From NCBI RefSeq assembly GCF_025457425.1, contig NZ_JAMXIA010000001.1, forward strand, positions 620,001 through 684,000: a stretch of 64,000 bases of DNA. The letters run 5' to 3'. A model generated the notes under the pieces. That model saw only the letters and a list, made by a program, of their open reading frames with translations, ran no database searches and was not told the DNA's origin. The translations under genes were made by a program, and so were the position numbers. This document shows, in pieces, positions 6,191-24,964 of the stretch. The stretch comes from Chryseobacterium foetidum (lineage in GTDB: Bacteria > Bacteroidota > Bacteroidia > Flavobacteriales > Weeksellaceae). The first letter of the stretch is position 1, and each line of letters opens with the position of its first letter.

Positions 6191-8143
6191 CTATTTTTTA
6201 ATTTTAAGTTTTGATTTAAGTTTTTTTGTAACAATTGTTTTTGATTTTCTTAAAACCACTCCCGAAAGTGCCGGAAGATTAATGCTTATTGTGTTTGTTT
6301 TGTTTTTCCACTCTTCTTTATCTTCACTGAAGATATTCGCAATAACGCCGCTACCTCCATATTTTTCATCATCAGAATTAAAGATAACTTCCCATTTTGA
6401 ATTTTCATCAACTCCAACCTTGTAATCAATAACCCTTGGCGTAAGATTAAGAATTGTCATTAAAATGTCATCTTCATTTTTGCCTTTTCGTAAATAAATT
6501 AGAACAGAATTATCGGTATCATCTGCTTCCACCCATTCAAAACCATAAGGATTAAACTGATTTTCATAGAGTGCCGTTTCGTTTTTATACAAATGATTCA
6601 AATCCTTTACAGCTTCCCTCAACCCTGAATGAATCGGATATTCCAAAAGATGCCAGTCTAAACTCTGTTTAAAATTCCACTCGCTCGTCTGCCCAAATTC
6701 ATCTCCCATAAAAAGCAGTTTTGCTCCCGGATGCGTGTACATATAAACATACAAAGCTCTGAGATTGGCAAATTTCTGCCATTCGTCTCCGAACATTTTA
6801 TAGATCAAACTTGCTTTTCCGTGAACAACTTCGTCGTGGGACAGAGGCATCATATAATTTTCATTATACATATACATCGACGCAAAGGTGAGCTTGTGAT
6901 GAAAATGCTTTCGGTTGATCGGATCTTCCTTAAAATATTTGAGCGTATCGTGCATCCAACCCATCATCCATTTCATTCCAAAACCTACTCCACCGTCATG
7001 AACAGGTTTGGTAAGCATTGGAAAATCCGAACTTTCCTCTGCGATGGTCATGATGGAATCGCCAAATTCTTTATAAACTGCGGTATTGAATTCCTGAAGA
7101 AAGGTTTTGGCTTCAAGATTCACATTTGTTCCAAAAATATTGGGCTCCCACTCGCCCTCGTTTCTCGAATAATCTAAATGCAACATAGATGTTACAGCAT
7201 CTACACGCAATCCGTCTGCATGATAACGGTCGAGCCAGAACATGGCGTTGGAAATCAGGAAAGATTTAACCTCATTTCTGCCGTAATTGAAAATGTAGGA
7301 TTTCCAGTCCGGATGAAAGCCCTTTCTTGGATCTTCATGTTCGTACAGATAAGAACCGTCGAATTTGTGCAAACCGTTGGCGTCGCCCGGAAAATGGGAC
7401 GGAACCCAGTCGAGGATTACACCAATATTATTTTTGTGAAGTTCATTAATTAAAAACATCAGATCCTGGGGCGAACCGAATCTTGACGTTGCTGCAAAAA
7501 ATCCGGTAATCTGATAGCCCCAGCTTGGATCATAAGGATATTCCATTACAGGCATGAATTCTACGTGCGTGAAACCCATTTCCAGAATATACGGAACGAG
7601 CTTTCCGGCTATGTCGCGGTAATTTAAAAACTGTTTTGGATTATCGCCAAAACGCAACCACGAACCAATGTGCATTTCATAAACGGAAATCGGAGCATTA
7701 AGACTGTTGTTTTTCCAGCGGTTCTGTATCCAATCTGTATCATCCCAATCGTAATAAGTTGTGGAAATAAGCGATGCAGCCTGAAGATTCTGTTCCCAGC
7801 TCAGTGCATACGGATCACTTTTCTCGAGAATTTTGCCCTCTTTGGTTTCGATGGCGTATTTATACAAAGTTCCCCATGTGAGACCTGCAATGAAGCCTTC
7901 CCAAATGCCGGATTCATCCCATCTCGGTGAAAGAACAGCTTCGGAAGGGTTCCATTTATTAAAATTACCAATCACCGAAACTTTTGTGGCAAAAGGTGCC
8001 CAGACTGAAAAGTAAACACCTTCCACTCCATCTTTAGTTACGGAATGAGCGCCGAATTTATCATACAGTTTATAGTGTTTACCTTCCTTGAAAAGATAAA
8101 TATCATGCTCGGTAAAAAGTGAATAGTTTTGTACAGACTTCAT
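6191..8143 (-). CDS. glgB: 1,4-alpha-glucan branching enzyme (GH13)
   Basis: Creates alpha-1,6 branches in glycogen. It has 650 residues: an N-terminal CBM48-type beta-domain (about 35-135; VYFSVWAPFATKVSVIGNFN), a GH13 catalytic barrel, and a C-terminal beta-domain. Catalytic motifs are GLRVDAVTSML with the nucleophile Asp315, TIAEESSDFP with the acid/base Glu (about 369), and MPLSHDEVVHGK with the third carboxylate. The last residues are a lysine-rich tail. It is the first gene of the minus-strand glycogen operon and is divergent from the esterase at 8435. Confidence 0.97.
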   Translation of the reverse strand: MKSVQNYSLFTEHDIYLFKEGKHYKLYDKFGAHSVTKDGVEGVYFSVWAPFATKVSVIGNFNKWNPSEAVLSPRWDESGIWEGFIAGLTWGTLYKYAIETKEGKILEKSDPYALSWEQNLQAASLISTTYYDWDDTDWIQNRWKNNSLNAPISVYEMHIGSWLRFGDNPKQFLNYRDIAGKLVPYILEMGFTHVEFMPVMEYPYDPSWGYQITGFFAATSRFGSPQDLMFLINELHKNNIGVILDWVPSHFPGDANGLHKFDGSYLYEHEDPRKGFHPDWKSYIFNYGRNEVKSFLISNAMFWLDRYHADGLRVDAVTSMLHLDYSRNEGEWEPNIFGTNVNLEAKTFLQEFNTAVYKEFGDSIMTIAEESSDFPMLTKPVHDGGVGFGMKWMMGWMHDTLKYFKEDPINRKHFHHKLTFASMYMYNENYMMPLSHDEVVHGKASLIYKMFGDEWQKFANLRALYVYMYTHPGAKLLFMGDEFGQTSEWNFKQSLDWHLLEYPIHSGLREAVKDLNHLYKNETALYENQFNPYGFEWVEADDTDNSVLIYLRKGKNEDDILMTILNLTPRVIDYKVGVDENSKWEVIFNSDDEKYGGSGVIANIFSEDKEEWKNKTNTISINLPALSGVVLRKSKTIVTKKLKSKLKIKK

Positions 8144-8434: not shown

Positions 8435-9544
8435 ATGATATTTAATTTAAAGACACAGGAAAATGATGACAGACCGATTTACATTACAGGTAACTTCAAC
8501 AGCTGGAATCCTAAAGATCCAAAATTCAGGCTTTGGAAAAAAGAGCCACAGCATTCATTAATAGAAATTCACGACAATCTTTTACCCGACATTATAGAAT
8601 ACAAATTCACGAAAGGCGGTTGGGAAAATGTGGAATTGGACGAATACGCCAAAATAACACCAAACCGGAGAATTGAAAAAAGCAGACAAAATTCTGATGA
8701 CGTCGTAACCAAATGGCGTTACAATTGGGGACCTTTTAAAAAAGAACTTTATCCTATTGCAGAAATTATTTCTGAAGAATTTTACATCCCGCAACTCGAC
8801 AGACACCGTAAAATCTGGGCTTTGCTTCCACACGATTATTATTCGACGGAAAAAAGCTATCCGGTGCTTTATCTTCAGGATGCTCAGAACCTTTTCAACG
8901 AAGGTAGTGCCTACGGGAACTGGGAAATCGACAAAAAACTATCTGTACTCTCAGAATACGGTCGCGGCGATGTCATCGTCATTGCCATTGAGCACGGAAG
9001 CGAAGATCGCATCAAAGAATATATTTTCGACAACGACAGTGTTGCCAATGGCTCGGAAGGTAAAAAATACATCAGATTTATTACTGATACTTTGAAACCG
9101 TACGTAGACGCGCATTACAGAACAAAAAAAGACCGTGACAATACAGGAATCGGCGGCAGCTCACTGGGCGGACTCATCAGTATTTACAGTGGATTTCTGT
9201 ATCCTGAGGTTTACTCTAAACTTTTGATTTTTTCGCCAAGCCTTTGGATTGAACCCAATAACAATTTCCCGATGATGAACTTCAGGGTTCCTTTTAAAAC
9301 TAAAATTTACCTCTACGGAGGCGAAAAAGAAGGTTCAAAAATGGTTAACCGCATCAATGTTTTTGAGCAATATCTTAAAATATGGGAGAAGAAAAACCTC
9401 TTTGATTTTGAATTTAAAACCAATATCAACCCAGATGGCGAACATAAGGAATTTTACTGGTCGCAGGAGTTCCCAAGGGCTATAGAGTGGCTTTTTTACA
9501 ACAATACAGAAAATCCGGTGGAAGTAACTCCGCATCAGGATTAA
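8435..9544 (+). CDS. Esterase-family alpha/beta hydrolase with N-terminal glycogen-binding-like domain
   Basis: A 369-residue two-domain protein. Residues 1-90 resemble a CBM48/AMPK-type starch-binding domain (PIYITGNFNSWNP, then IIEYKFTKGGWENVE). Residues about 115-365 are an esterase D/enterochelin-esterase-like hydrolase. They include KIWALLPHDYYSTEKSYPVLYLQDAQN, the nucleophile elbow GGSSLGG (Ser243) and a late His in DGEHKEFYW. No signal peptide was seen. It is divergent from the glycogen operon, which with the glucan-binding-like domain suggests a glycogen-associated or sugar-ester substrate (inference). Its last bases run into a short non-coding gap before the aminopeptidase gene. Confidence 0.8.
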   Translation: MIFNLKTQENDDRPIYITGNFNSWNPKDPKFRLWKKEPQHSLIEIHDNLLPDIIEYKFTKGGWENVELDEYAKITPNRRIEKSRQNSDDVVTKWRYNWGPFKKELYPIAEIISEEFYIPQLDRHRKIWALLPHDYYSTEKSYPVLYLQDAQNLFNEGSAYGNWEIDKKLSVLSEYGRGDVIVIAIEHGSEDRIKEYIFDNDSVANGSEGKKYIRFITDTLKPYVDAHYRTKKDRDNTGIGGSSLGGLISIYSGFLYPEVYSKLLIFSPSLWIEPNNNFPMMNFRVPFKTKIYLYGGEKEGSKMVNRINVFEQYLKIWEKKNLFDFEFKTNINPDGEHKEFYWSQEFPRAIEWLFYNNTENPVEVTPHQD

Positions 9545-9714
9545 AAATGAATGATCCTCAACAATTTATAATAACTGAAAAACCTTCGAGAGCATTTGCA
9601 AGTTTACGGCTTTGTGAACCTTTAAATAATATATTATTGCAAAACCTTGTGAACTTTGCGTTCAAAAAGCATTATTATAAAGAATATATATATTCTAAAA
9701 AAATTAAATATAGA

Positions 9715-11130
9715 ATGAAACTAATCAATAAAAAAAACAAAAATTACGCACAGATCTTTCAACTTTTTACAGAAGAAAAATGGACTGAAAGCGCAAAAAA
9801 TTTTAATAAAAACATTTCACTTTTGTTTTCAGGAAAGAAAAATGAAGTGCATATTCAAACAAATGAGGATACTGTCATTTTTTTTATAGGCTTAGGGAAA
9901 GCAAATGCTGCCAATTTTGAATTTCAGCAGGTTGGACAGAAGTTTTCCCAGACTCAAAAAGAAAAGATACAGCCTGTTCCCACGCAGATCATTTGTGAGA
10001 ATATCACCGAGAAACAGTTTGAAGAGTTTTTTAAAGGACTTTATCTGGGTACTTACACTTATAATTTCGACAAATCTAATACCCTTTGGAACGAGAAAAC
10101 AGAACTTCATTTTGAAAATTTCAGCCAAAAGAAATTAGATCAGATAAAAGATAATACCAATGCAATCTGTGAAGGTCAGTTCGCCTGCATGGAATGGCTT
10201 AATAAACCTGCAAATCTTAAGAAAACAGATGTTTTGAGTGCAGCTTTAAAAGATCTTTCTAAAAAGTATGATTTTAAATACACGTCATTCAACAGAAAAA
10301 AATGTTTGGAACTTGGTTTGGGCGCTTACTTAGCCGTTAATCAAGGCAGTGAGCAGGATGCAGCTTTTACCATTCTGGAATATAAAACAAAAGTAAAAAA
10401 TGCCAAAACCATCGGTCTTGTCGGCAAATGCGTAACTTTTGATACCGGCGGAATTTCCATCAAAGCATCAGACAATATGCACTACATGAAATCTGACATG
10501 GGTGGAGCTACAGCTGTGATTGGAGCACTGATTTACGCAGCGGAAAAGGAACTGCCTGTTAACATCATCACTGTTTTGCCGATTACTGACAATGCGGTTT
10601 CAGAAAACGCTTATCTACCGAGCGATGTTATTAAGGCATACAACGGAAAAACGATTGAAGTTCTCAATACAGATGCAGAAGGCAGAATGATTTTGGCAGA
10701 TGCACTCTCCTATTTATCTAAAAATTATAAAACCGATGTCATGATTGATTTGGCAACCCTCACAGGAAGCAGCGTGCGAATGTTTGGCGATACCTGTGGA
10801 GCGATGTTTTCAAATAATGACAGATTAAAAGATCTGCTTCTGAAAACCGGTGATCAGACCAACCAAAGGCTTTGGAATCTACCACTCTGGGATGTCTGGA
10901 AAGATGATTTCAAATCTGATGTCGCCGATGTAAAAAACATTTCGATGAAACCCATCGGAGACTGCATTGTTGCTGCAAAATTTTTGGAAGAATTTATAGA
11001 AGGTCACCAAAACTGGGCACATCTGGATATTGCCGGAGTAGCATTTGGAAATACGGGATATTCAAAAGAAAAGGCAGCAACGGGTTACGGCGTTCAATTA
11101 TTAGCCGAATTAATTGAAAATTATCACTAA
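9715..11130 (+). CDS. Leucyl aminopeptidase family protein (M17)
   Basis: A cytosolic metallo-aminopeptidase of the M17 family, which removes N-terminal residues from peptides and dipeptides. The start chosen is ATG 9715 (MKLINKKNKNYAQIFQLFTE), giving 471 residues. The frame is open further upstream, but that part is intergenic-like and unlike the family. The C-terminal catalytic domain has FDTGGISIKASDNMHYMKSD, with the metal-binding Lys and Asp, and NTDAEGRMILADAL, the family signature. The gene sits between the glycogen-linked esterase and the amidoligase cluster. A role in breaking down peptide products of that cluster is possible but unproven. A terminator follows. Confidence 0.9.
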   Translation: MKLINKKNKNYAQIFQLFTEEKWTESAKNFNKNISLLFSGKKNEVHIQTNEDTVIFFIGLGKANAANFEFQQVGQKFSQTQKEKIQPVPTQIICENITEKQFEEFFKGLYLGTYTYNFDKSNTLWNEKTELHFENFSQKKLDQIKDNTNAICEGQFACMEWLNKPANLKKTDVLSAALKDLSKKYDFKYTSFNRKKCLELGLGAYLAVNQGSEQDAAFTILEYKTKVKNAKTIGLVGKCVTFDTGGISIKASDNMHYMKSDMGGATAVIGALIYAAEKELPVNIITVLPITDNAVSENAYLPSDVIKAYNGKTIEVLNTDAEGRMILADALSYLSKNYKTDVMIDLATLTGSSVRMFGDTCGAMFSNNDRLKDLLLKTGDQTNQRLWNLPLWDVWKDDFKSDVADVKNISMKPIGDCIVAAKFLEEFIEGHQNWAHLDIAGVAFGNTGYSKEKAATGYGVQLLAELIENYH

Positions 11131-11152
11131 AAATTAGTTTTTTAGAAAATTT

Positions 11153-11206
11153 ATCCCTATACTTGATAAGAAATTTTTAAAATCATATCAATTAGGGATT
11201 TTTATT
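11153..11206 (+). terminator. Intrinsic terminator after the M17 aminopeptidase
   Basis: ATCCCTATACTTGATA (11153-11168) can pair with TATCAATTAGGGAT (11186-11199) with a small bulge. A run of T follows. The hairpin lies 22 bases past the stop codon and separates the aminopeptidase transcript from the ATP-grasp cluster. Confidence 0.6.
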
Positions 11207-11270
11207 AAAAAGTCTCAAACAATTGTTTGGTTTTGTTTTTAATAATCAACCTAAACCCTCAAAACACTAT

Positions 11271-12482
11271 ATGGAGAAGAAAACTATTGTTTGCATTTCC
11301 TGCTATTACAAAGGCTATGATTTCATGGAGGAAATGAAAAATCTTGGCAACAAGGTCATCCTCATCACCTCAGAAAATCTCAAGGAAAAAAACTGGCCCT
11401 GGCACGCGATAGATGAAGTTTTCTACATGCCCGAACTTAAACCTTCGGTGTGGGATCTTGAACATTTGGTACAGGGATTTTCCCACCTGATGAAAACACG
11501 GAAAGTCGACGCAGTAATTGCTCTCGACGATTATGATGTGGAAAAAGCAGCGCTTGTACGGGAAACTTTCAGAATTCCAGGTATGGGACAGACAACCCAC
11601 AGATACTTCCGTGATAAACTGGCAATGCGGCAGAAAGCAAAAAGTTCAGGGATTGATGTTCCGGAATTCACGGCAATTTTTAATGACGCCGAAGTATCTG
11701 AATTCATCCAAAAAGTTCCTGCACCATGGGTATTGAAACCCAGATCTGAAGCTTCAGCAAGCGGAATTAAAAAATTAAAATCAGAAGAAGAACTTTGGAG
11801 AGCCCTTGAAAATCTGGGCGACGAAAGACATCTTTTTCTTCTGGAAAGCTTTAAGCCTGGCGATGTCTATCACGTAGACAGTCTTACATTCAATGCCAAG
11901 ACGGTTTTCACATCTTCATCCAAATATCTCGCACCTCCAATGCAGGTTTCGCACGAGGGCGGAGTTTTCAGAACGAGAACTCTAGGAAGATATTCTGATG
12001 AATTTAAAGCTTTGGAACTTGCCAATGAAAAAGTTTTGACCAATTTTGGGCTTCAAAACGGAGCCACGCACACAGAATTTATCCGTGGAAAGGAAGATGG
12101 AAAATGGTATTTTCTGGAAACTTCTTCACGCGTCGGCGGAGCACATATTCCTGATTTGGTGGAAGCGTCGAGCGGCATCAACATCTGGCATGAGTGGGCA
12201 AAAATAGAGGATGCTCTTTTGAAGGGTTTGGATTATTCCATCTCAAAACCTACAGGATACTATGCCGGACTTATCATTGCGTTAATCAAAGAAAAACATC
12301 CTGATTACCAATATTTCGAGTCGGAAGAAACAGTAAAGTTCTTACCAATCGATTATCACGTGGGAATTGTCTACAAATCTGCAGATTCTGAAGTCATTCA
12401 GACGAGACTTGATGAAACTGCAGAAAAAATCAATGCTGAAATGCTGAGTATTATTCCGCCAAAAGACAAACCGACATCTTAG
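11271..12482 (+). CDS. ATP-grasp enzyme 1 of the amidoligase cluster
   Basis: A predicted carboxylate-amine/thiol ligase of the ATP-grasp superfamily. It activates a carboxylate as acyl phosphate and joins it to an amine; the substrates are unknown. The start chosen is ATG 11271 (MEKKTIVCISCYYKGYDFME), giving 403 residues. An in-frame upstream start exists but adds only unlikely residues. A pre-ATP-grasp domain spans about 1-110. The ATP-binding strand PWVLKPRSEASASGIKKL is at about 152-169, and the metal-binding region ETSSRVGGAHIPDLVEASSG is near 290-310. This is the first gene of a same-strand run with gaps of 30, 45, 21 and 32 bases, suggesting an operon. It resembles carbamoyl-phosphate-synthase-like ATP-grasps used in peptide-like metabolite synthesis. 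Confidence 0.85.
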   Translation: MEKKTIVCISCYYKGYDFMEEMKNLGNKVILITSENLKEKNWPWHAIDEVFYMPELKPSVWDLEHLVQGFSHLMKTRKVDAVIALDDYDVEKAALVRETFRIPGMGQTTHRYFRDKLAMRQKAKSSGIDVPEFTAIFNDAEVSEFIQKVPAPWVLKPRSEASASGIKKLKSEEELWRALENLGDERHLFLLESFKPGDVYHVDSLTFNAKTVFTSSSKYLAPPMQVSHEGGVFRTRTLGRYSDEFKALELANEKVLTNFGLQNGATHTEFIRGKEDGKWYFLETSSRVGGAHIPDLVEASSGINIWHEWAKIEDALLKGLDYSISKPTGYYAGLIIALIKEKHPDYQYFESEETVKFLPIDYHVGIVYKSADSEVIQTRLDETAEKINAEMLSIIPPKDKPTS

Positions 12483-12512
12483 ATTTTATTAAATTTTCAA
12501 ACACTAAATTTT

Positions 12513-13226
12513 ATGCCGCAAATCACGCATACAGATTACTATTCGCATATATTAGGAACGAGCCTGAAAGTGGAAGTGACAGGTCATTATGGTTACCCAA
12601 TCATTATGTTTCCTACTTCACAAGGTCAGTATACCCAGAACCATGATTTCCATCTTAACGGAAGCATCAATTGGTTTATAGAGCAGGGAAAGGTAAAACT
12701 ATACAACATTCAGACGATTGATGCCTGGAGTTTTTATGACAACAACATTTCGCCGCGCCAGAGAATTAAAAACTATGAACTGTATGTACAGTTTCTTTTA
12801 AAAGAGTTTGTGCCATACGTTCAGAAAATGCATCAGACCCATCGTGTAGCAGTTGCAGGGGCAAGTTTTGGAGGTTATCATGCTGCCAATTTCGCTTTCA
12901 GATTTCCGGATTTGGTTTCTCACCTTTTCTGTCTTTCGGGAGCATTCAGCATCAGAAATTTTATGGACGGATACAGCGATGATCTTGTTTTCTTTAATTG
13001 CCCGAGAGAATTTGTCCGCACAGACGAAGCGTGGAAATACAAACACATGCACATCGTTCTCAGCACTTCAGACGAAGACATCTGTAAAGATAAAAACATC
13101 GAAATGGCAGAAATATTAAGTTCAAAAGGAATTGATTTCTGGTATGATGAGCGCAAATGGATCAACCACGACTGGCCGCTCTGGAGAATGGTTTTCCCAA
13201 CATTTATAGGTCGGTTTTTCTCTTAA
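12513..13226 (+). CDS. Esterase-like alpha/beta hydrolase of the amidoligase cluster
   Basis: A 237-residue alpha/beta hydrolase of the putative-esterase family. The nucleophile elbow GASFGG is at residues 116-121 (Ser118), and the candidate His lies in KWINHDWPLWR near the C-terminus. No signal peptide was seen, so it is probably cytoplasmic. It sits 30 bases after ATP-grasp 1 and 45 bases before ATP-grasp 2. In such neighbourhoods a hydrolase could cleave or transfer an ester or amide intermediate. The reaction cannot be read from the sequence. Confidence 0.8.
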   Translation: MPQITHTDYYSHILGTSLKVEVTGHYGYPIIMFPTSQGQYTQNHDFHLNGSINWFIEQGKVKLYNIQTIDAWSFYDNNISPRQRIKNYELYVQFLLKEFVPYVQKMHQTHRVAVAGASFGGYHAANFAFRFPDLVSHLFCLSGAFSIRNFMDGYSDDLVFFNCPREFVRTDEAWKYKHMHIVLSTSDEDICKDKNIEMAEILSSKGIDFWYDERKWINHDWPLWRMVFPTFIGRFFS

Positions 13227-13271
13227 AATTATTTAAATCTAAACAATATTAAACACATTAAAACTATTATT

Positions 13272-14225
13272 ATGGCAAAAAAAGTAGGAATTCTTTTTGG
13301 AATGGAAGACACATTTCCGTGGGCATTCATCGATAAGGTAAACGAATTGGGCAAGGGAGACATCGTTGCAGAACCCGTAATGATAGATAAGCTCGAGCAG
13401 GGCGTTGATTACGGATACGCTGTTATCATCGACAGAATTTCTCAGGATGTTCCTTTTTACAGAGCGTACCTTAAAAACGCAGCTTTAAACGGAACGTATG
13501 TCATGAACAACCCTTTCTGGTGGAGCGCAGACGAGAAATTTTTCAACAATGCTTTGATGTCGAAACTCGGAATTCCACTTCCTAAAACGGTTTTACTTCC
13601 TTCGCATGAAAGACCGAGCAACACATCTGAAACTTCATTCAGAAACCTGAAATTCCCTCACGACTGGGATTATATTTTCGATTACGTAGGCTTTCCGGCT
13701 TACATGAAACCTCACGACGGTGGAGGTTGGAAAAGCGTTTATAGAGTTGAAAGTCCTGAAGATCTTTGGGATAAACTTTCAGAAACAGAGCAGTTGGTGA
13801 TGATGGTACAGGAAGAAATTGTATTTGATGATTACTACAGAGTTTACTGTTTAGGTAAAAAGCACGTTCACATCATGCCTTACGAACCAAGAAATGAACA
13901 TCATTTAAGATATGCGACGACTCATCAGACTTCGGGTGCTAAACTTAAAAAGTTACTGAAAACCATTCACGATTACACTATCAAGATGAATGAGGCTTTA
14001 GGATACGATTTCAATACTGTGGAATTTGCGGTAAGAGACGGAATTCCTTATGCTATCGACTTCTGTAACCCAGCGCCGGATGCTGATAAAAACTCTGTTG
14101 GAGAAGAAAACTTCAAATGGATCGTAGAAAATGCAGCAAAATTTGCGATTGAGAAAGCCAAAGAATATGTTCCTGGAAAAGCAAATATCTCATGGGGAAC
14201 TTTCGTGAAGGACTCTGCGAAATAA
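13272..14225 (+). CDS. ATP-grasp enzyme 2 of the amidoligase cluster
   Basis: A 317-residue ATP-grasp protein from a different subfamily than its neighbour at 11271. The ATP-binding motif FPAYMKPHDGGGWKSV is at about 141-156. The metal-binding strand NTVEFAVRDGIPYAIDFCNPAPDAD lies near 245-270, with the Glu and Asn expected for Mg coordination. It probably forms an amide or peptide bond, with unknown substrates. It is in the middle of the five-gene run and 21 bases before the YbdK-type ligase. A fused accessory domain is absent. Confidence 0.85.
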   Translation: MAKKVGILFGMEDTFPWAFIDKVNELGKGDIVAEPVMIDKLEQGVDYGYAVIIDRISQDVPFYRAYLKNAALNGTYVMNNPFWWSADEKFFNNALMSKLGIPLPKTVLLPSHERPSNTSETSFRNLKFPHDWDYIFDYVGFPAYMKPHDGGGWKSVYRVESPEDLWDKLSETEQLVMMVQEEIVFDDYYRVYCLGKKHVHIMPYEPRNEHHLRYATTHQTSGAKLKKLLKTIHDYTIKMNEALGYDFNTVEFAVRDGIPYAIDFCNPAPDADKNSVGEENFKWIVENAAKFAIEKAKEYVPGKANISWGTFVKDSAK

Positions 14226-14246
14226 TTAATTTCAAAAACACAAAGT

Positions 14247-15365
14247 ATGCACACATTTACCATAGGAATTGAAGAGGAATATCAAATCATAGACGTTGAA
14301 AGCAGAGATCTTATTTCTCACGTTTCCAAAATTATTGAGGGCGGTAAAGCGGTTTTAAGTGAAAATTTAAAACATGAAATGCACGAATCCATGATTGAAA
14401 TGGAGACTGGAATCTGCCAGAATATCCAGCAAGCCAGAGAAGAGCTCACGAGCCTTCGCAAACATCTTATTGCGACAGCCCATGAACAGGGACTTCGTGT
14501 CTCGGGAGGCGGAACACATCCGTTCTCCAACTGGGAACACAACACGATTACCAACGGCGAGCGTTACAATAAAATTGTGGATGATATGGGCGACGTGGCA
14601 AGAGGAAACCTCATCTTTGGTCTGCACGTACACATCGGAATTCCTAACCGTGAGGAAGGCGTGAGAATACAGAACGTAATGCGTTATTTTCTGCCCCACG
14701 TTTATGCATTATCCACCAATTCACCTTTCTGGATTGGAAGAAATACCGGATTTAAATCTTACAGACAGGAGATTTTTGTAAAATTTCCGAGAACGGGTAT
14801 TCCGAGTTATTTTAATTCTCTTTCTGAATTTGACAGCTATGTTGATCTACTGGTAAAAACAGGAACGATTGATAATGCCAAAAAAATATGGTGGGATCTT
14901 CGTGTGCATCCTTTCTACCCGACAATTGAGTTCAGAATCTGCGATATGCCGATGAGAATAGACGAAACTGTCTGTCTTGCTGCAATTATGCAGTGTCTCG
15001 TGGCGAAAATCTATAAACTTCATCAGCAGAATTTAAGTTTCAGAAGCTACAGAAGATTGTTGTTAAATGAAAACAAATGGCGCGCTTCCAAAGACGGAAT
15101 TGATGCCCATTTGATTGACTTTGGTAAAGAGGAATCTGTTCCTTACCGCGATCTTTTAAAAGAACTTTTAGAATTTATCGACGATGTCGTAGATGAATTA
15201 GGCTGCCGAAAAGAAGTGGAATATGCATGGCAGATTATTGAAAACGGAACCGGTGCAGACCGCCAGCTGAAGGTGCTTCAGGAAACGGGAGACTTGAAAA
15301 AAGTAGTGGATTATATGATCTCTGAAACAGAATTTGGTATCACACACAGCGAGGCTGCTTTATAA
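14247..15365 (+). CDS. YbdK-type carboxylate-amine ligase (GCS2 family)
   Basis: A member of the glutamate-cysteine ligase 2 (COG2170) family, which activates a gamma-carboxylate with ATP and joins it to an amine. It has 372 residues, the usual size. Typical motifs are FTIGIEEEYQIID at the N-terminus, GTHPFSNWE, GLHVHIGIPNREEGVRI and FRICDMPMRIDE. Most such enzymes have unknown natural substrates, and weak glutamate-cysteine ligase activity is known for the E. coli homologue. Its place between ATP-grasp 2 and a glutamine amidotransferase points to synthesis of an amide-linked metabolite rather than glutathione. Confidence 0.9.
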   Translation: MHTFTIGIEEEYQIIDVESRDLISHVSKIIEGGKAVLSENLKHEMHESMIEMETGICQNIQQAREELTSLRKHLIATAHEQGLRVSGGGTHPFSNWEHNTITNGERYNKIVDDMGDVARGNLIFGLHVHIGIPNREEGVRIQNVMRYFLPHVYALSTNSPFWIGRNTGFKSYRQEIFVKFPRTGIPSYFNSLSEFDSYVDLLVKTGTIDNAKKIWWDLRVHPFYPTIEFRICDMPMRIDETVCLAAIMQCLVAKIYKLHQQNLSFRSYRRLLLNENKWRASKDGIDAHLIDFGKEESVPYRDLLKELLEFIDDVVDELGCRKEVEYAWQIIENGTGADRQLKVLQETGDLKKVVDYMISETEFGITHSEAAL

Positions 15366-15373
15366 AAATTTTA

Positions 15374-15381
15374 TAACTTTG
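15374..15381 (+). promoter_or_regulatory. Candidate internal -7 box
   Basis: TAACTTTG matches the flavobacterial TAnnTTTG box 16 bases before the amidotransferase start codon. No -33 element was found at the expected spacing, because that sequence is inside the preceding gene. It may be an internal promoter or a chance match. Confidence 0.25.
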
Positions 15382-15397
15382 TTCAAATTATGAAGTT

Positions 15398-16225
15398 ATG
15401 AAAGAGATAAGAATTGCGCTGCTGGATATGAATAACAACAAGAAAAATCAGGGTTTTAAAAACATCCGTGAGATTTCTGAAAGTTTTAAAGCAAATTCTG
15501 AAGAAGAAATTAACATTACCAATTTTGACATAAGACATCTGAACGAGATGCCGAAACTGGAAGATTTTGACATCTTTATTTCATCAGGAGGACCAGGAAA
15601 TCCGCACAGAGAAGGACATGAATGGGAAGAGAAATTCGCCGGTCTTTTAGATGGTATTTTTAGTCACAACAAGGTTTCAGAGAACAAAAAATATATGTTT
15701 CTGATCTGTCACTCGTTTCAGATTGCCAGCATTCACTGGAAACTCGGAAATATTTGTGAAAGAAAATCTTACTCATTTGGTGTGATGCCTGTTCACAAAT
15801 CTGAAGAAGGAGAAACTGATTTTTTACTTAAAAATCTGCCGGATCCTTTCTATGCAGTGGATTCGAGAGCTTATCAGTTTATCGAGCCGGATCAGCAAAG
15901 ATTTGATGAGTTGGGAATGAAAATAATGGCACTGGAAAAGTTCCGCCCGCACATCAATCTTGAGAGAGCAGTGATGGCGATTCGTTTTTCAGAGGAAATT
16001 TTCGGTACTCAGTTTCATCCGGAGGCAAATCCTGAAGGAATGCTGGAAAACCTGAAAGATGAAGAGAACAAAATCGCTATGATTGAAAACTACGGTATCG
16101 AAAAATATCTGGAAACGCTCGACAGAATGGATGATGAGGATAAAATAAAACTGACTCAGGCACAGATTCTCCCAAGATTTTTGGAAGATGCAAAACAAAA
16201 AATTCTACAGCCGGAAACTGTTTAG
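15398..16225 (+). CDS. Class I glutamine amidotransferase-like protein
   Basis: A 275-residue class I (triad) glutamine amidotransferase-like protein, able in principle to release ammonia from glutamine or to hydrolyse a gamma-glutamyl bond. Visible features are SSGGPGNP (62-69) as the oxyanion strand, the nucleophile Cys104 in MFLICHSFQIAS, and FHPEANPEG with His207 and Glu209. The elbow CHSFQ departs from the usual G-x-C-x-G-H-Q, so the enzyme may use a modified substrate. It is the fifth gene of the amidoligase run and is followed by a terminator. It may feed ammonia to a partner ligase or hydrolyse the product. Confidence 0.8.
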   Translation: MKEIRIALLDMNNNKKNQGFKNIREISESFKANSEEEINITNFDIRHLNEMPKLEDFDIFISSGGPGNPHREGHEWEEKFAGLLDGIFSHNKVSENKKYMFLICHSFQIASIHWKLGNICERKSYSFGVMPVHKSEEGETDFLLKNLPDPFYAVDSRAYQFIEPDQQRFDELGMKIMALEKFRPHINLERAVMAIRFSEEIFGTQFHPEANPEGMLENLKDEENKIAMIENYGIEKYLETLDRMDDEDKIKLTQAQILPRFLEDAKQKILQPETV

Positions 16226-16234
16226 AAATACAGC

Positions 16235-16262
16235 AAAATCGGGCACAGCGCCCGATTTTTTA
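16235..16262 (+). terminator. Intrinsic terminator after the amidotransferase gene
   Basis: A perfect 10-bp stem AAAATCGGGC/GCCCGATTTT with loop ACAGC runs into a T tract. It lies 10 bases after the amidotransferase stop and only 20 bases before the next gene. That gene therefore depends on read-through or on a promoter upstream of the hairpin. Confidence 0.8.
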
Positions 16263-16281
16263 ATTAAAAAAAACATCAGGG

Positions 16282-17466
16282 ATGATTCCAAAATACAGAA
16301 AAAAATTCAATTCAGAATTCTCTAATGAGAAATACCAAAATGTAAATTCAATCCTTACCGAAAAAAGCGGAATACAGACAGGATTCAGACTTTCTGAAAG
16401 TCCGGTTTTTTTGACTCACGATTTTAAAAATAAACTTACGGATGCCAGCGAAAGTATTTTGGACCAAATCATTGCGATGTCGCCGGAAGCTTTACAGATT
16501 GCCATTCCCGACAATTGTCAAGTTCCGAATGATACTTTAAAACCTCACTTTTTTACCATCGATTTCGGGATCTGTAAAAATGCAAAAGGCGAAGTTGAAC
16601 CTCAGCTGATCGAACTTCAGGCATTTCCGTCTCTATATGCTTTTCAAAAAGTATATGAAGATGCTTTCTGCGAAGTCTACCCTTTTTTGAGTGATCTGAA
16701 AAGCAAAATGAGCGATGAAGAATTTCTGTCTCAGATGAAAAATCTCATTGTAGGAAATGAAAATCCCGAAAATGTAATTCTGCTTGAAATTTATCCTGAA
16801 AAACAGAAAACCTCAATTGATTTTAAACTTACAGAAAACTTTTTAGGCATAAAAACCGTTTGTCTTACCAAAATAAAAAAAGACGGAAAAAAACTTTTCT
16901 ATGACAATGACGGAAAACTTACGGAGATCCGAAGAATCTACAACCGTGTAATTTTTGACGAACTCGACAGAATTCCGGATCTGAAAACTGAATTTGACTT
17001 CAGGGAAGACGTTGATGTGACCTGGGTGACGCATCCGAACTGGTTTTTCAAAATTTCAAAATATCTTTTGCCATTATTAAAACATGAATTTGTTCCTAAA
17101 AGTTACTTTCTCAACGAATTTCCAGCCGATGAAAATCTAAATGATTTTGTTTTAAAACCTCTGTTTTCTTTTGCAGGAAGCGGCGTCAACCTTCACCCGA
17201 CATCAGAAATTACAGATAAAATTGAAGATAAGGAAAACTATATTTTACAGAGAAAAGTAGAATATGCTCCGGTTTTTGAGGACATCAACGGAGAATTTTC
17301 GCGTGCGGAAATCCGGCTTTTGTATGTGTGGCAGGAAAATGAGGAGCGTCCGGTTTTGGTTCAGTATCTTGTAAGAATGACAAAAGCGGAAATGGTGAAC
17401 GTAGATTTCAATAAAAAAGACGCCATTTGGATTGGCAGTTCACATGCCTTTTTTGGGGAAGAATAA
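16282..17466 (+). CDS. ATP-grasp-like protein of unknown function
   Basis: A 394-residue protein I do not recognise as a named enzyme. Its C-terminal third has ATP-grasp-like features: NDFVLKPLFSFAGSGVNL with a candidate ATP-binding lysine, then a YILQRKVEYAP strand. The region IDFGICKNAKGEVEPQLIELQAFPS in the N-terminal half has the look of the metal-binding part of a circularly permuted ATP-grasp, as in glutathionylspermidine-synthetase-like proteins (inference). It ends convergently against cphA, with a shared bidirectional terminator. Its position between the amidoligase run and the cyanophycin genes suggests a link to one of them. Confidence 0.65.
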   Translation: MIPKYRKKFNSEFSNEKYQNVNSILTEKSGIQTGFRLSESPVFLTHDFKNKLTDASESILDQIIAMSPEALQIAIPDNCQVPNDTLKPHFFTIDFGICKNAKGEVEPQLIELQAFPSLYAFQKVYEDAFCEVYPFLSDLKSKMSDEEFLSQMKNLIVGNENPENVILLEIYPEKQKTSIDFKLTENFLGIKTVCLTKIKKDGKKLFYDNDGKLTEIRRIYNRVIFDELDRIPDLKTEFDFREDVDVTWVTHPNWFFKISKYLLPLLKHEFVPKSYFLNEFPADENLNDFVLKPLFSFAGSGVNLHPTSEITDKIEDKENYILQRKVEYAPVFEDINGEFSRAEIRLLYVWQENEERPVLVQYLVRMTKAEMVNVDFNKKDAIWIGSSHAFFGEE

Positions 17467-17468
17467 AC

Positions 17469-17506
17469 AAAAAATCGGGTGAAACGTTGTCTCACCCGAT
17501 TTTTTT
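17469..17506. terminator. Bidirectional terminator between convergent genes
   Basis: AAAAAATCGGGTGA (17469-17482) pairs with TCACCCGATTTTTT (17492-17505), with poly-A and poly-T flanks on both strands. It serves the plus-strand ATP-grasp-like gene and minus-strand cphA. Confidence 0.85.
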
Positions 17507-17526: not shown

Positions 17527-20157
17527 TTAAAGTCCTTTATTTTCCTCAAGCAATTCTCTCGCCTGATATTCCTGTACAAGATCGATTGCATTAGATATAA
17601 CATCGCTCAAAGCAGTGATAAAAGTGCCGTCTTCAGCCATTCCCATTGCATGTTTTAACGCTTCAATTTCCTTTGGAATCGTTTCATAACTTACGTCTCT
17701 TCCGGATTCCTGCATGCCTTCGATGATTAAATTGTTAATCTCATCTTCAGTTCGTCCACGCAAATGTTTCTCGTTGCGGATGATGATGTGATCAAACATT
17801 CTGCCGGCAATTTTACCGCAAAGTTTGATGTCTGCATCTCTCCTGTCGCCAACACCGGAAATAATACCGATTTTCTTGGTGGCTTCCACATTTTTGAGAT
17901 AATCTTCAATCGCTTCATATCCCGCCGGATTGTGTGCGAAGTCAATTAAGACTTTAAAATTCTTAAAATTAAAGACATTCAGCCTTCCTGGCGTCAGCTG
18001 TGCACTTGGAATAAAAGTTCTGAGTGAATTGGAAATATCTTCAATTGCAAATCCGTAAAGATAACAGGCTAAGCTTGCTGCCAAAACGTTTTCAATCATA
18101 AATTTCGCCTTGCCTTCCATCGTAATCGGGAAATCTTTGGCTTTACCAATTCTGATTTTCCAGTCGCCTTTTTTGATGGTTACAAAACCTTCTTCGTATA
18201 CGCAGGTCGTTTTGCCTTCTTTCGCATACTTTTTAATGAAAGGATTGTTCTCATCCATGCTGAACAGTGCAATATTGCTGTCGAGATCATTAATAATTCT
18301 CATTGAATATTCGTCATCAGCATTCATTACACTCCACCCGTTCTTTTTCACGCTGTCGAGAATCACACGTTTTACCTTCGTAAGATCTTTCAGGTTGTGA
18401 ATATCGTTGATGCCTAAGTGATCTTCTTTAATATTGGTTAAAACCCCGATATCACAGTTGGAGAAACCTAAACCTGATCTTAAAATTCCGCCTCTGGCAG
18501 TTTCAAGAACGGCAAATTCTACAGTGGGATCTTTAAGGATGAATTCTGCAGAGATCGGACCGGTGGTATCCCCTTTCGTCAACATTGTATTTTGGATATA
18601 AATACCGTCTGAAGTGGTAAAACCAACTCTGTAACCGTTGTTTTTAACGATATGGGAAATCAGCCTTGTTGTTGTTGTTTTCCCGTTGGTACCTGTTACT
18701 GCAATGATCGGAATAGTAAACGGCTTTCCTGGTGGATAAAGCATATCAACCACAGGAGCGGCAACGTTTCTTGGCAATCCTTCGCTTGGTGCGAGGTGCA
18801 TTCTGAATCCTGGTGCAGCATTTACTTCAATGATGGCAGCACCACTCTCTTTTAGGGGCTGGGTAAGATTTTCAGCCATAATATCGATTCCGCAAACATC
18901 AAGACCGATGATTTTTGAAATTCTTTCTGCCATTGTGATATTTTCCGGATGCACCATATCGGTAACGTCGATGGAAGTGCCACCCGTTGAAAGATTGGCA
19001 GTTGATTTCAGATAAACTACTTCACCTTTTTGAGGAATCGTATCTAAGGTATAATGAAGTTTATCTAAAAGCTCTGTCGTGTCTTTGTCTATCGTGATTT
19101 CAGTAAGTACATTTTCATGACCGTAACCTCTTCTCGGATCCTGATTTTCTTTATCGATAAGTTGCTGAAGATTCAATTCCCCGTCGCCGATGACGTGAGC
19201 AGGAACTCTTCGTGCTGCAGCAATCATTTTATTATTAATCACCAAAACCCTGAAATCGTAGCCAGTGATATATTTTTCGACAATTACTCTGGTTGAATAA
19301 GTTTGTGCATGTGCCAGACCAATTTTGGCCGCCTCCCAGTCGCTTACATTGATTGAAGAGCCTTTTCCGTGATTTCCGTCAAGTGGTTTTATGACGATGG
19401 GATAGCCAATTTTTCTCACAACTTCATCCAATCCTTCCTCATCAGTGATCAGTTCACCAACAGGTACCGGAATGGCAGCGTCATGCAGCATTCTTTTGGT
19501 TAAATCCTTATTGCAGGCAATATCAACACCGATACAACTTGTATTTCCTGTAATTGTGGCCTGAAATCTCTGCTGATTGACACCATAACCCAACTGAACC
19601 AGCGAATTGGTTCCCAACCTAATCCATGGAATTTTTCTGGAAACCGCTTCCTCAACGATACTTCCCGTGGAAGGACCAAGGCGTACTTTCTCCCGTATCT
19701 CCTTTAATTTCTGAATGCAGGCAGGCAAGTCATAGTCTCTTCCTTCAATAAGAGCCTCAGCGATTTTTACTGATTCTTCAGCTGCAAAAATTCCTGCATT
19801 TTCTTCAAGATAATTAAAAACCACATTGTAAACTCCCGGAGTTCTGGTTTCCCTTGTTCTCCCAAAGCCTACATCCATGCCGGCCAGTGTCTGGATTTCG
19901 AGTGCGATATGTTCTATCACATGCCCCATCCAGGTTCCTTCTGCAATACGGTGAAAAAATCCACCCTCTACGCCCTCAGAACATCTGTGTGTGAAAAGTG
20001 ACGGAATCAGCTGCTCTATGCGCTCGCGGAAGCCATCAATTTTGTTGGTAGGAAAATTTTCCATTTCCTGAAGGTCCAGTCTCATCTGGATCAGTTTCTT
20101 TCTTTTAATGCTCCAAATGTTTGGCCCTCTTAGTGCCTGTATCTTCTCAATGTTCAT
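17527..20157 (-). CDS. cphA: Cyanophycin synthetase
   Basis: Polymerises aspartate and arginine into cyanophycin (multi-L-arginyl-poly-aspartate) in an ATP-dependent, ribosome-free way. It has 876 residues, the normal length. Three parts are visible: an N-terminal region (1-160), an ATP-grasp module with GYPIVIKPLDGNHGKGSS (251-268) and IIEVNAAPGFRMHLAPSEG (442-460), and a Mur-ligase-like module with the P-loop VTGTNGKTTTT (487-497) and a late DFAHNPAGYEAI motif. The two ligase modules add aspartate and arginine, respectively, in known enzymes. It is divergent from cyanophycinase, and a good promoter sits at 20200-20231. Confidence 0.96.
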   Translation of the reverse strand: MNIEKIQALRGPNIWSIKRKKLIQMRLDLQEMENFPTNKIDGFRERIEQLIPSLFTHRCSEGVEGGFFHRIAEGTWMGHVIEHIALEIQTLAGMDVGFGRTRETRTPGVYNVVFNYLEENAGIFAAEESVKIAEALIEGRDYDLPACIQKLKEIREKVRLGPSTGSIVEEAVSRKIPWIRLGTNSLVQLGYGVNQQRFQATITGNTSCIGVDIACNKDLTKRMLHDAAIPVPVGELITDEEGLDEVVRKIGYPIVIKPLDGNHGKGSSINVSDWEAAKIGLAHAQTYSTRVIVEKYITGYDFRVLVINNKMIAAARRVPAHVIGDGELNLQQLIDKENQDPRRGYGHENVLTEITIDKDTTELLDKLHYTLDTIPQKGEVVYLKSTANLSTGGTSIDVTDMVHPENITMAERISKIIGLDVCGIDIMAENLTQPLKESGAAIIEVNAAPGFRMHLAPSEGLPRNVAAPVVDMLYPPGKPFTIPIIAVTGTNGKTTTTRLISHIVKNNGYRVGFTTSDGIYIQNTMLTKGDTTGPISAEFILKDPTVEFAVLETARGGILRSGLGFSNCDIGVLTNIKEDHLGINDIHNLKDLTKVKRVILDSVKKNGWSVMNADDEYSMRIINDLDSNIALFSMDENNPFIKKYAKEGKTTCVYEEGFVTIKKGDWKIRIGKAKDFPITMEGKAKFMIENVLAASLACYLYGFAIEDISNSLRTFIPSAQLTPGRLNVFNFKNFKVLIDFAHNPAGYEAIEDYLKNVEATKKIGIISGVGDRRDADIKLCGKIAGRMFDHIIIRNEKHLRGRTEDEINNLIIEGMQESGRDVSYETIPKEIEALKHAMGMAEDGTFITALSDVISNAIDLVQEYQARELLEENKGL

Positions 20158-20353: not shown

Positions 20354-21238
20354 ATGAAACCTGTGGGAAAACTTATTATTATCGGAGGAGCTGTAAATAA
20401 AGGCAGTTTCACAGAAACCGAGTACGACCAAAATGTAGAAAAAAACCTTAATTTTTTTGAAAGAGGAATTTTAAGAAAAATCATTGCAGAATCTAAACAC
20501 AAGGAAGATTCTGTAATTGAAGTGATTACAACAGCTTCGCAAATACCTAAAATCGTAGGTGCTGAATATAAAAAGGCCTTCGAATATCTTGGTGCTAAAA
20601 ATGTAAATATTCTTGATATACACAACCGTGAAGAAGCCAATTCTGATGCGCTTGTTGCCAGAGCCAACGCTGCGGATGTAGTAATGTTTACCGGTGGAGA
20701 TCAGTTAAGGCTGACTTCCATTTTGGGTGGAACAAGATTTCACGACACTATTTTACTGAAATATCAGGAGCAGGATTTTATCTACTCCGGAACTTCTGCG
20801 GGTGCAGCAGCGGCCTCTGAAAATATGATTTATCAGGGAAGCAGTTCTGAAGCTTTGCTGAAAGGTGAAATCAAAACAACACAAGGCTTAGGTTTAATTG
20901 ATAATGTGGTGGTAGACACCCATTTTGTTCAGAGAGGAAGAATAGGCAGACTTTTTCAGGCGGTTGTGAGCAATCCGAGGACTTTGGGGATCGGTTTGGG
21001 AGAAGATACAGGTCTTTTTATTCACAACGACGTGATGACAGCCGTAGGATCCGGACTTGTAATCTTGGTGGACGGAAGATTCATTAAAGATACCAATTTA
21101 ACCAATATCAATCTCGGAGAGCCAATTTCAATTGAAAATCTGACGGTTCATGTGATGTCGATGAATGACCATTACAACCTTACGACAAAGGAAATGACAA
21201 TTGAGAATTCTCAGTTTAATCCGATTCCGCAAACATAA
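20354..21238 (+). CDS. cphB: Cyanophycinase
   Basis: A serine exopeptidase of family S51 that splits cyanophycin to beta-Asp-Arg dipeptides. The start is taken at ATG 20354 (MKPVGKLIIIGGAVNKG), giving 294 residues; the TTG nine bases earlier is less likely. The nucleophile elbow GTSAGAA puts Ser148 at the active site. A conserved FTGGDQLRL precedes it, and DTHFVQRGRIGRL and GIGLGEDTGLFI follow. A TAATTTTG sequence (20340-20347) only 6 bases before the ATG resembles a -7 box and would give a nearly leaderless message. The next gene, isoaspartyl peptidase, completes polymer breakdown. Confidence 0.95.
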   Translation: MKPVGKLIIIGGAVNKGSFTETEYDQNVEKNLNFFERGILRKIIAESKHKEDSVIEVITTASQIPKIVGAEYKKAFEYLGAKNVNILDIHNREEANSDALVARANAADVVMFTGGDQLRLTSILGGTRFHDTILLKYQEQDFIYSGTSAGAAAASENMIYQGSSSEALLKGEIKTTQGLGLIDNVVVDTHFVQRGRIGRLFQAVVSNPRTLGIGLGEDTGLFIHNDVMTAVGSGLVILVDGRFIKDTNLTNINLGEPISIENLTVHVMSMNDHYNLTTKEMTIENSQFNPIPQT

Positions 21239-21340: not shown

Positions 21341-22183
21341 ATGAAAATCATCATCCACGGAGGTTTTTTCTCTGAAAGCGACCAGAGCAACGAAGTAAAA
21401 GTTGCCAAACAAAACTCGCTGAAAAGCATTGCTGAAAAGGCTTATCAACATTTAAAAACTAATTCTGCAGTGGATACTGCGGCTTACGCAGTTTCACTTT
21501 TGGAAGATGACGAACTGTATAATGCCGGAATTGGTTCGCAAATTCAAAGCGACGGGATCATCAGAATGAGTGCTGCTCTGATGGATGGTGAAACGCAGAA
21601 AATGAGCGGTGTGATCAATATTCAGGATGTGAAAAATCCGATTTTTGTGGCGAAGGAGCTGATGAATGAAGATGACAGGGTTTTGGGCGGAAATGGTGCA
21701 AAAATTTATGCAATTGACCATGGTTTTGAAAATTTCTCAACCGAAATTCCACAAAGAAGAAAAGAATACGAAGCCAAAATGAACAACGGCGGCAAAGGAA
21801 CTGTGGGTTGCGTTGCCATCGACGAAAAAGGCAAACTGGCAGTGGCCACCTCAACCGGAGGCAAAGGTTTTGAAATCCCCGGAAGAATCTCTGATTCTGC
21901 GACTGTTGCAGGAAATTACGCCAACGAATTTTGCGCTGTAAGCTGTACCGGAGTGGGCGAAGACATCGTGAGCAACGCCACTTCAGCAAAAATTGTGACG
22001 AGAGTGACTGACGGAATGAGTCTGGAGCAAGCTTTCGACAAAACTTTTACCGAGCTGAAAGCAATTGACGGTTTTGCAGGAGCAATTGCTATTGATAAAG
22101 CCGGAAATATTTTCCATCAGGATTCTTATCCTAAAATGGTTTTTGCGAGCTTTGACGGAGAAAATTTTGAGATTTTTGAATAA
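21341..22183 (+). CDS. Isoaspartyl peptidase/L-asparaginase (Ntn hydrolase)
   Basis: Hydrolyses beta-aspartyl dipeptides, including the beta-Asp-Arg released by cyanophycinase, and often L-asparagine. It has 280 residues, a little shorter than typical IaaA proteins. The autocatalytic cleavage site is Gly153-Thr154 in NNGGKGTVGCVAID; Thr154 would become the N-terminal nucleophile of the beta subunit. STGGKGFEIPGRISDS and GDS-like substrate loops follow, as does a GVGEDIV segment. Placed 102 bases after cyanophycinase on the same strand, it supplies the last step: free aspartate and arginine. Confidence 0.93.
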   Translation: MKIIIHGGFFSESDQSNEVKVAKQNSLKSIAEKAYQHLKTNSAVDTAAYAVSLLEDDELYNAGIGSQIQSDGIIRMSAALMDGETQKMSGVINIQDVKNPIFVAKELMNEDDRVLGGNGAKIYAIDHGFENFSTEIPQRRKEYEAKMNNGGKGTVGCVAIDEKGKLAVATSTGGKGFEIPGRISDSATVAGNYANEFCAVSCTGVGEDIVSNATSAKIVTRVTDGMSLEQAFDKTFTELKAIDGFAGAIAIDKAGNIFHQDSYPKMVFASFDGENFEIFE

Positions 22184-23708: not shown

Positions 23709-24281
23709 ATGATTAATTTACAGAAAGGTCAGAAAATTGACATTGGATTGAGCAAAATGACGATTGGTTTGGGATGGGATCCCAGCGAAGGAACGGCTTT
23801 CGACTTCGATTTGGATGCTTCCGCATTTATGATTGACGAAAGGAGGCAGATCCCGAGCGAACCGTTTTTTATTTTTTATGGAAACACAGATTCTCCGGAC
23901 GGCGCTTTGAGACACACCGGCGACGACCCAACAGGAGGAAACAGTGCCGACGGCGATGATGAAAGCATCGAGGTTGATTTATCTAAAGTTGACCCAAGAA
24001 TCAACGAAATTCTTATTGTAGTAACCATTCACGAAGCTATCAACAGAAAACAAAACTACGGACAGGTAAGAAATTCATACATCAGAATCGTAGATGACAG
24101 CAACGGTCAGGAAGTGGCAAAATATGAGTTAGGAGAAGATTTTTCTATTGAAACTGCCGTTGAATTCGGAAGACTTTACAAAAGAAACGATCAGTGGAAA
24201 TTTGAAGCTTCAGGAATTGGCTACAGAGAAGATTTAGCTTTCTTTTTATCAAAATATTACAGCGGACAAATTATCAAGTAA
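23709..24281 (+). CDS. TerD-family calcium-binding stress protein 1
   Basis: A 190-residue TerD-domain protein, first gene of the Ter operon. TerD domains bind Ca2+ through acidic clusters. Here the motifs are DFDLDASAFMID, GDDPTGGNSADGDDESIEVDLSKVDP and ETAVEFGRLYKRNDQWKFEA. The family is associated with tellurite, oxidative, phage and general chemical stress responses. The second TerD starts 5 bases after its stop. The 206-base gap upstream, shared with the divergent methyltransferase, must carry the operon promoter, but no convincing -33/-7 pair was identified there. Confidence 0.93.
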   Translation: MINLQKGQKIDIGLSKMTIGLGWDPSEGTAFDFDLDASAFMIDERRQIPSEPFFIFYGNTDSPDGALRHTGDDPTGGNSADGDDESIEVDLSKVDPRINEILIVVTIHEAINRKQNYGQVRNSYIRIVDDSNGQEVAKYELGEDFSIETAVEFGRLYKRNDQWKFEASGIGYREDLAFFLSKYYSGQIIK

Positions 24282-24286
24282 TAAAT

Positions 24287-24958
24287 ATGGCAATCAATTT
24301 ACAAAAAGGTCAAACCATCGATTTAAGAAAAAATGACCGTGGAGAAAGCGTTTACGACCTTTCACAGGTGACTATCGGTTTAGGATGGGATGTCCGTCAA
24401 AAACAAAGTGGTTTTTTCGGAAAAATATTTGGAGGAAAAGAAGAAGAATACGATCTGGATGCTGTAGCTTTTCTTCTCGACAGCAGCGGAAAAGTAGCTG
24501 ATTTAGGGAGAACTGCTACTGTAGGTGGTAGAAACGTAGCTTTATACGGAGGCGACGTAATTTATTTCAACTCCATGAGACATCCAAGCGGAAATATCTG
24601 GTTGACGGGTGATAACAGAACGGGTGCAGGAGATGGAGATGACGAGCAAATCATTGTTCAGTTAGACAAACTCGATCAGAAATATCAGAAAATACTATTT
24701 GTGGTCACTATTTATCAGGGAAGACAGAATAATCAGCATTTCGGAATGGTAGACAATGCCTTCATCAGAGCTGTTGATGCCCGTGGAAAGGAAATTACAA
24801 AATACAGTCTTTCTGGCGATGTATCAATGAACGGAATGTGTTCCATGGTTTTTGCTGAAGCGTACAGACATAACGGCGACTGGAAATTCCGTGCACTGGG
24901 TGAACCCGGACAAACCGATAACTTCGTTGATCTTTTAGCAAAATACGCCTACAAATAA
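24287..24958 (+). CDS. TerD-family calcium-binding stress protein 2
   Basis: A 223-residue TerD paralogue. Compared with its neighbour it has an insertion near the N-terminus (QKQSGFFGKIFGGKEEEYDLDAVAF). The acidic Ca-binding motifs DLDAVAFLLD and GDNRTGAGDGDDEQIIVQLDKL are intact. The C-terminus MNGMCSMVFAEAYRHNGDWKFRALGE is typical. The genes lie 5 and 6 bases from the neighbours on each side, so they are co-transcribed and possibly translationally coupled. Confidence 0.93.
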   Translation: MAINLQKGQTIDLRKNDRGESVYDLSQVTIGLGWDVRQKQSGFFGKIFGGKEEEYDLDAVAFLLDSSGKVADLGRTATVGGRNVALYGGDVIYFNSMRHPSGNIWLTGDNRTGAGDGDDEQIIVQLDKLDQKYQKILFVVTIYQGRQNNQHFGMVDNAFIRAVDARGKEITKYSLSGDVSMNGMCSMVFAEAYRHNGDWKFRALGEPGQTDNFVDLLAKYAYK

Positions 24959-24964
24959 TTAAAT

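Follow-up and report, generated by a model that had tools for sequence, protein, structure and literature searches.

A conserved amide-ligase gene set of Bacteroidota and Acidobacteriota that may make a glutathione-like small molecule

The window, a stretch of 64,000 nucleotides from Chryseobacterium foetidum (contig NZ_JAMXIA010000001.1, positions 620,001 to 684,000), holds a trio of genes (8435-12482) joined to a pentad (12513-17466), with two cyanophycin genes beyond. The features, with the names used below, are:

8435-9544, + strand: est0, an esterase (PF00756, 87.7 bits) extended at its N-terminus by about 110 amino acids; gene 1 of the trio
9715-11130, + strand: LAP, an M17 leucyl-aminopeptidase-like peptidase (PF00883, 350 bits); trio member
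11271-12482, + strand: AG1, an ATP-grasp ligase resembling L-amino-acid ligases (PF13535, ATP-grasp_4)
12513-13226, + strand: ABH, an esterase-type alpha/beta hydrolase (PF00756, 37 bits); gene 1 of the pentad
13272-14225, + strand: AG2, an ATP-grasp ligase of RimK/LysX/Ddl fold; the commonest core gene
14247-15365, + strand: GCS2, a YbdK-type carboxylate-amine (gamma-glutamyl) ligase
15398-16225, + strand: GAT1, a stand-alone class I glutamine-amidotransferase fold (PF00117, 38.7 bits)
16235-16259, no strand: an inverted repeat of 11 pairs in the GAT1-AG3 gap, from a scan for terminator-like structures; putative attenuator
16282-17466, + strand: AG3, an ATP-grasp protein of the glutathione synthetase / glutathionylspermidine synthase / YgiC-YjfC fold group; final gene of the pentad
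17469-17505, no strand: a strong inverted repeat with a 17-pair stem and a T tail, which separates AG3 from the convergent gene cphA
17527-20157, - strand: cphA, a cyanophycin synthetase gene (family match)
20354-21238, + strand: cphB, a cyanophycinase gene (family match)

A preliminary description, made from the sequence alone, had listed the six reading frames from AG1 to AG3, and their positions, their single direction on the + strand and the gaps of 21-45 bases were all found as given there. The gaps along AG1-ABH-AG2-GCS2-GAT1 measure 30, 45, 21 and 32 bases, and 56 bases separate GAT1 from AG3. The start of LAP was shifted to the ATG that yields 471 amino acids, the length seen in its relatives. 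The repeat at 17469-17505 is likely to be a two-way terminator that closes the operon; matches in a sigma-70 promoter scan did not rise above those in shuffled sequence. The AG2 protein is 91-92% identical to those of C. contaminans, OV279 and FH2, which places the host close to Chryseobacterium. The host genome has a size of 4.0 Mb.

The families named in the preliminary description are upheld by the family searches, which give ATP-grasp_4, alpha/beta hydrolase, RimK-family ATP-grasp, YbdK, class I amidotransferase and, for AG3, a weak GSP_synth match. GCS2 lies above the curated YbdK cut-offs (NF010039, 539.9 bits vs 371; TIGR02050, 303.8 vs 176.4) and matches the YbdK structures 1r8g (E=6e-51) and 1tt4 (E=2e-52); as a GshA-type glutamate-cysteine ligase it scores 65.1 bits against a cut-off of 249 (TIGR02048). 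AG2 gives 38.1 bits (E=1e-9) with the RimK family TIGR00768, below the cut-off of 143.4, and matches no Pfam family. No matches were returned when AG2 and GAT1 were searched as single sequences against the PDB, but the AlphaFold model of AG2 (pLDDT 89.7) has the ATP-grasp fold and matches Ddl, LysX/ArgX and RimK with E about 1e-12 to 1e-14, and also PsnB. The best solved relative of AG1 is the L-amino acid ligase 4wd3 (E=3e-15), with 3vot as a further match.

For AG3, the AlphaFold model (pLDDT 89.6) finds the yeast and human glutathione synthetases as its top fold matches (1m0w, 8fbz, 2hgs; E about 1e-14), followed by 3n6x, a putative glutathionylspermidine synthase, by GSP synthase, by YjfC and by the fungal ligase Cp1B. 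The model thus predicts a glutathione synthetase fold, in the sense of a shared fold only, with modest TM-scores of 0.5-0.65. None of the GSH_synth and GshB models of Pfam and NCBIfam matches the protein, and its GSP_synth score of 20.2 stays under the cut-off of 29.3 and spans only part of the ATP-grasp module. Of the relatives by fold, YgiC/YjfC are peptidylpolyamine synthetases according to PMC12568646, which also gives the reaction of Cp1B, the coupling of epoxysuccinate with an amino acid.

In GAT1, the triad Cys104/His207/Glu209 of class I amidotransferases is invariant in 34 relatives, and the nucleophile motif reads C-H/Y-S-F/Y-Q. The triad of ABH (Ser118/Asp189/His219) is intact in most of 37 relatives. 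Its nucleophile is lost in four loci, each without GAT1 alongside, so the ABH step can be dispensed with in places.

Our survey covered 247 Bacteroidota genomes drawn evenly from the phylum, 80 AG2 neighbourhoods, and 149 relatives of one Acidobacteriaceae genome. Across the 80 mapped neighbourhoods, which come from many Bacteroidota families, the order ABH-AG2-GCS2-GAT1-AG3 recurs and defines a core pentad; the order ABH-AG2-GCS2-M29-AG3, with an M29 aminopeptidase, is found in Acidobacteriaceae MAGs and their relatives. That the set keeps its order across dozens of families, and beyond the phylum in another, is far more than chance would give. AG2 is present in 86 of the 247 genomes, GCS2 in 79, AG3 – often in an adjacent position – in 73, GAT1 in 59 and AG1 in 52. 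The preliminary description had held that absence of co-occurrence elsewhere would speak against its reading; in these genomes all pairs among the five genes co-occur, with p-values from 4e-14 to 1e-42 that ignore shared ancestry. In several families (f22, f24, f28), and in genomes such as G101 and G192, AG2, GCS2 and AG3 are all present yet dispersed in the genome, and such co-occurrence despite scattering points to a common pathway and not to mere linkage. Of the 149 genomes related to the Acidobacteriaceae genome, 49 have AG2 as well, with a strong match in about 40. About one third of the sampled Bacteroidota and Acidobacteriota genomes retain the set. Plasmid-borne relatives of AG2 or AG3 were not found.

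The trio est0-LAP-AG1 forms a second unit, which is frequently unlinked to the pentad. Its order is kept in loci L112-L117, L119 and L040 as well as in Weeksellaceae, and AG1 adjoins the module in just 8 of the 80 AG2 neighbourhoods, although it is confined to AG2-positive genomes (52 of 52 among the Bacteroidota). The gene set of the preliminary description is therefore conserved as a group, but its internal division has to be redrawn: AG3, there a "further" gene, belongs to the core, whereas AG1 belongs to an auxiliary trio with the two genes upstream.

Two positions of the module are filled by alternative genes (REPLACEMENTS: AG3/CPATG and GAT1/M29). In some families AG2 has CPATG, a circularly permuted ATP-grasp with a weak PF14403 match, as a neighbour. 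Each of the 77 firm AG2-positive genomes possesses exactly one of the two genes, AG3 in 64 and CPATG in 13 (Fisher 5e-15). This count excludes three genomes with weak AG2 matches, as well as a distant 35% match in G137 that was judged to be a different gene. Comparison of the AG3 and CPATG profiles gives a colinear alignment across 281 columns, at a probability of just 13%. The M29 aminopeptidase (PF02073) lies between GCS2 and AG3, i.e. in the slot of GAT1, in two Acidobacteriaceae MAGs, in their relatives and in the Bacteroidota genomes G055 and G093. Among the 247 Bacteroidota it is found only in these two and in G208, all three AG2-positive and GAT1-negative; an M29 in the GAT1 position is known from few lineages. 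Of the firm AG2-positive genomes, 13 lack GCS2 (among them G037, G064, G178 and eight CPATG genomes), so the gamma-glutamyl step is not universal, and these genomes must take the first step in another way. The interpretation builds on what was observed: which genes are present, their order and co-occurrence, the replacements, the predicted folds and the conserved catalytic residues.

From them we infer every substrate, the order of the steps and the product of the following scheme; a glutathione-like route is the most economical pathway that the folds allow. GCS2 would use ATP to activate a glutamate-type carboxylate, which it would then link with an amino acid or amine. AG3, or CPATG in its place, would extend the free carboxylate of the intermediate by an amino acid or amine, and AG2 would attach one more amino-acid unit. 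GAT1, or M29 instead, could then cleave off a residue, glutamyl or N-terminal, as the product matures or is turned over, while the auxiliary trio (AG1, the M17 aminopeptidase and the esterase) may make or salvage a building block. We put at about even the chances that the cluster encodes such a non-ribosomal, NRPS-independent amide-ligase pathway, whose product would be small and resemble glutathione. The likeliest candidate is a gamma-glutamyl peptide or peptide-amine of at least three units, which GAT1 or an aminopeptidase would trim. The conservation of the genes as a set supports the earlier proposal that several ligases and amide-bond hydrolases cooperate in the multi-step synthesis of an amide-linked compound.

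The likeness to known systems is partial in each case. As in glutathione biosynthesis, the module pairs a gamma-glutamyl-type ligase of GCS2 fold with a ligase of glutathione synthetase fold; unlike it, GCS2, at 65 bits, remains below the cut-off of 249 for cyanobacterial GshA, AG3 falls outside the glutathione synthetase families, and additional ATP-grasps and hydrolases are present. The host carries bshC and can be expected to produce bacillithiol, as Bacteroidetes and Acidobacteria are reported to do (PMC6282198). There is thus no need for the product to serve as the main thiol. Glutathione itself was rejected as the product on the family cut-offs and the presence of bshC. AG3 shares the fold group of YgiC/YjfC and glutathionylspermidine synthetase (7uk6, 2io7, 3n6x), but its GSP_synth match is weak and partial. 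AG1 is nearest to L-amino-acid ligases (dapdiamide synthase, BacD, 4wd3), yet its equivalog scores are 19-22 bits against cut-offs of 840-850. Finally, the match of AG2 to PsnB recalls the graspetide (RiPP) clusters, but the module in the window has no precursor-peptide gene; a cluster of this kind was rejected, since core gaps of 21-56 bases are too short for one.

Two alternatives keep the enzymes but change their task. If GAT1 were a true glutaminase that supplies a ligase with ammonia, the product would bear a primary amide, and the retained Cys-His-Glu triad, the Gln of the nucleophile motif and the common direction of GAT1 and the ligases would fit. The motif itself is C-x-S-x-Q, however, a departure from the C-x-G-x-Q usual in class I enzymes, and 22 of the 77 firm AG2-positive genomes lack GAT1. 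An aminopeptidase standing in its slot in Acidobacteriota and some GAT1-less Bacteroidota makes the role of an amide hydrolase likelier than that of an ammonia donor; we consider the donor role unlikely. Somewhat less probable again is that the ligases serve to tag proteins reversibly with amino acids or short peptides, in the manner of RimK, tubulin ligases or pupylation. Operons that combine ATP-grasps and COOH-NH2 ligases have been predicted for protein modification and metabolites alike (PMC4431377). RimK and LysX/ArgX, members of the AG2 fold group, do act on proteins, and enzymes of the GCS2 fold are related to the Pup ligase PafA. Yet a conserved small carrier or target gene was not found in the neighbourhoods examined, the fold relatives of AG3 act on small peptides, and the recurrence of two aminopeptidase families likewise fits small peptides.

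Other alternatives start from the neighbouring genes. The preliminary description took the cyanophycin genes beside the cluster as a hint at an arginine-, aspartate- or glutamate-based compound and proposed to see whether the set stays beside cphA/cphB. The two genes are indeed those of a cyanophycin synthetase and a cyanophycinase, but they lie outside the conserved unit. A role of the cluster in the modification or recycling of beta-Asp-Arg, or in the synthesis of a related polymer, could be argued from cphA, cphB and an Asparaginase_2 gene directly after the cluster in Chryseobacterium, from an Asparaginase_2 gene close to AG1 in L104/L105, and from a weak excess, for GAT1 alone, of genomes with both GAT1 and cphA (14, 7.2 expected, p=0.005). 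Against this, cphA adjoins the cluster only in the genus of the window, and Elizabethkingia occulta has the identical eight-gene run with no cph gene within the fetched stretch. Among the 247 Bacteroidota, AG2 and cphA occur together in 14 genomes where 10.4 are expected (p=0.16), AG1 and cphA in 7 where 6.3 are expected, and 72 of the 86 AG2 genomes have no cphA. This distribution largely refutes an accessory role in cyanophycin metabolism, which we regard as very improbable; a general link is rejected. Hardly more probable is a tie to glycogen metabolism, for example that the cluster decorates glycogen or makes its regulator. In four cases from unrelated lineages the module adjoins glg genes: glgC and AG1 are separated by 9 bases (L074), glgA-glgC precede ABH-AG2 (L098), glgA is convergent with AG1 (L129), and in the genus of the window glgB and est0 are divergent. 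These cases suggest a link to glycogen, but with about 4 independent cases in about 80 module loci, most of them without a glg neighbour, the evidence is too thin to claim one.

Neighbourhoods with NRPS-independent ligases are a known kind. Those of Iyer et al. 2009, as cited in PMC4431377, are of the same general type, in which ATP-grasps are linked with GS-like ligases, with peptidases and with hydrolases. A literature search, with the text of Iyer 2009 outside its scope, found no paper describing this module, and it is possible that the same neighbourhood was already predicted in that work. What is apparently new here is that genes replace one another in the module, that a trio accompanies it, that it extends into Acidobacteriota and that AG3 is predicted to have the glutathione synthetase fold.

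Returning to the glutathione-like route, we propose tentatively, at somewhat less than even chances, that a new small molecule of this kind, a gamma-glutamyl pseudo-tripeptide or peptide-polyamine, is among the products of about one third of Bacteroidota and of many Acidobacteriota. Its dedicated pathway would include a previously unnamed ATP-grasp family with the fold of eukaryotic glutathione synthetase, replaced by a permuted ATP-grasp in some lineages. The chemistry can be tested with a handful of soluble enzymes. The strict either/or exchanges, of AG3 or CPATG and of GAT1 or M29, mark obligatory steps. A multi-step pathway that is present in one third of a major phylum and has no known product is rare, and so wide an occurrence speaks for a metabolite with a housekeeping or stress function and against a niche antibiotic.

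Genes of glycogen metabolism (glgC, glgA, glgB) directly adjoin genes of the module in four unrelated families; in one such locus, 9 bases separate glgC from AG1, the L-amino-acid-ligase-like ATP-grasp. The adjacencies are located as follows:
L074:12643-15141, glgC and AG1
L098:9453-14098, glgA-glgC before the hydrolase ABH and the ATP-grasp AG2
L129:7974-10668, glgA convergent with AG1
window 6191-8143, glgB divergent from est0

The catalytic serine of ABH is missing in four loci of one family (L064, L070, L071, L072), all of which carry the module without an adjacent amidotransferase gene, GAT1, which lies elsewhere in the same genomes. In five loci of one family (L078, L084, L090, L093, L096), AG2 adjoins, in place of the pentad, a gene that, read by eye only, resembles histidine ammonia-lyase.

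Between GAT1 and the ATP-grasp gene AG3, a perfect hairpin of 11 pairs (window 16235-16259) is possibly an attenuator inside the operon. Further downstream lie:
window 21341-22183, Asparaginase_2 gene of the isoaspartyl peptidase type, after the cyanophycinase gene
window 23709-31321, TerD-family, VWA, TerY-C, PP2C phosphatase and kinase-like genes

The latter constitute a stress cluster of the ter type, and with the former the cyanophycin set of Chryseobacterium is complete (cphA-cphB-peptidase).
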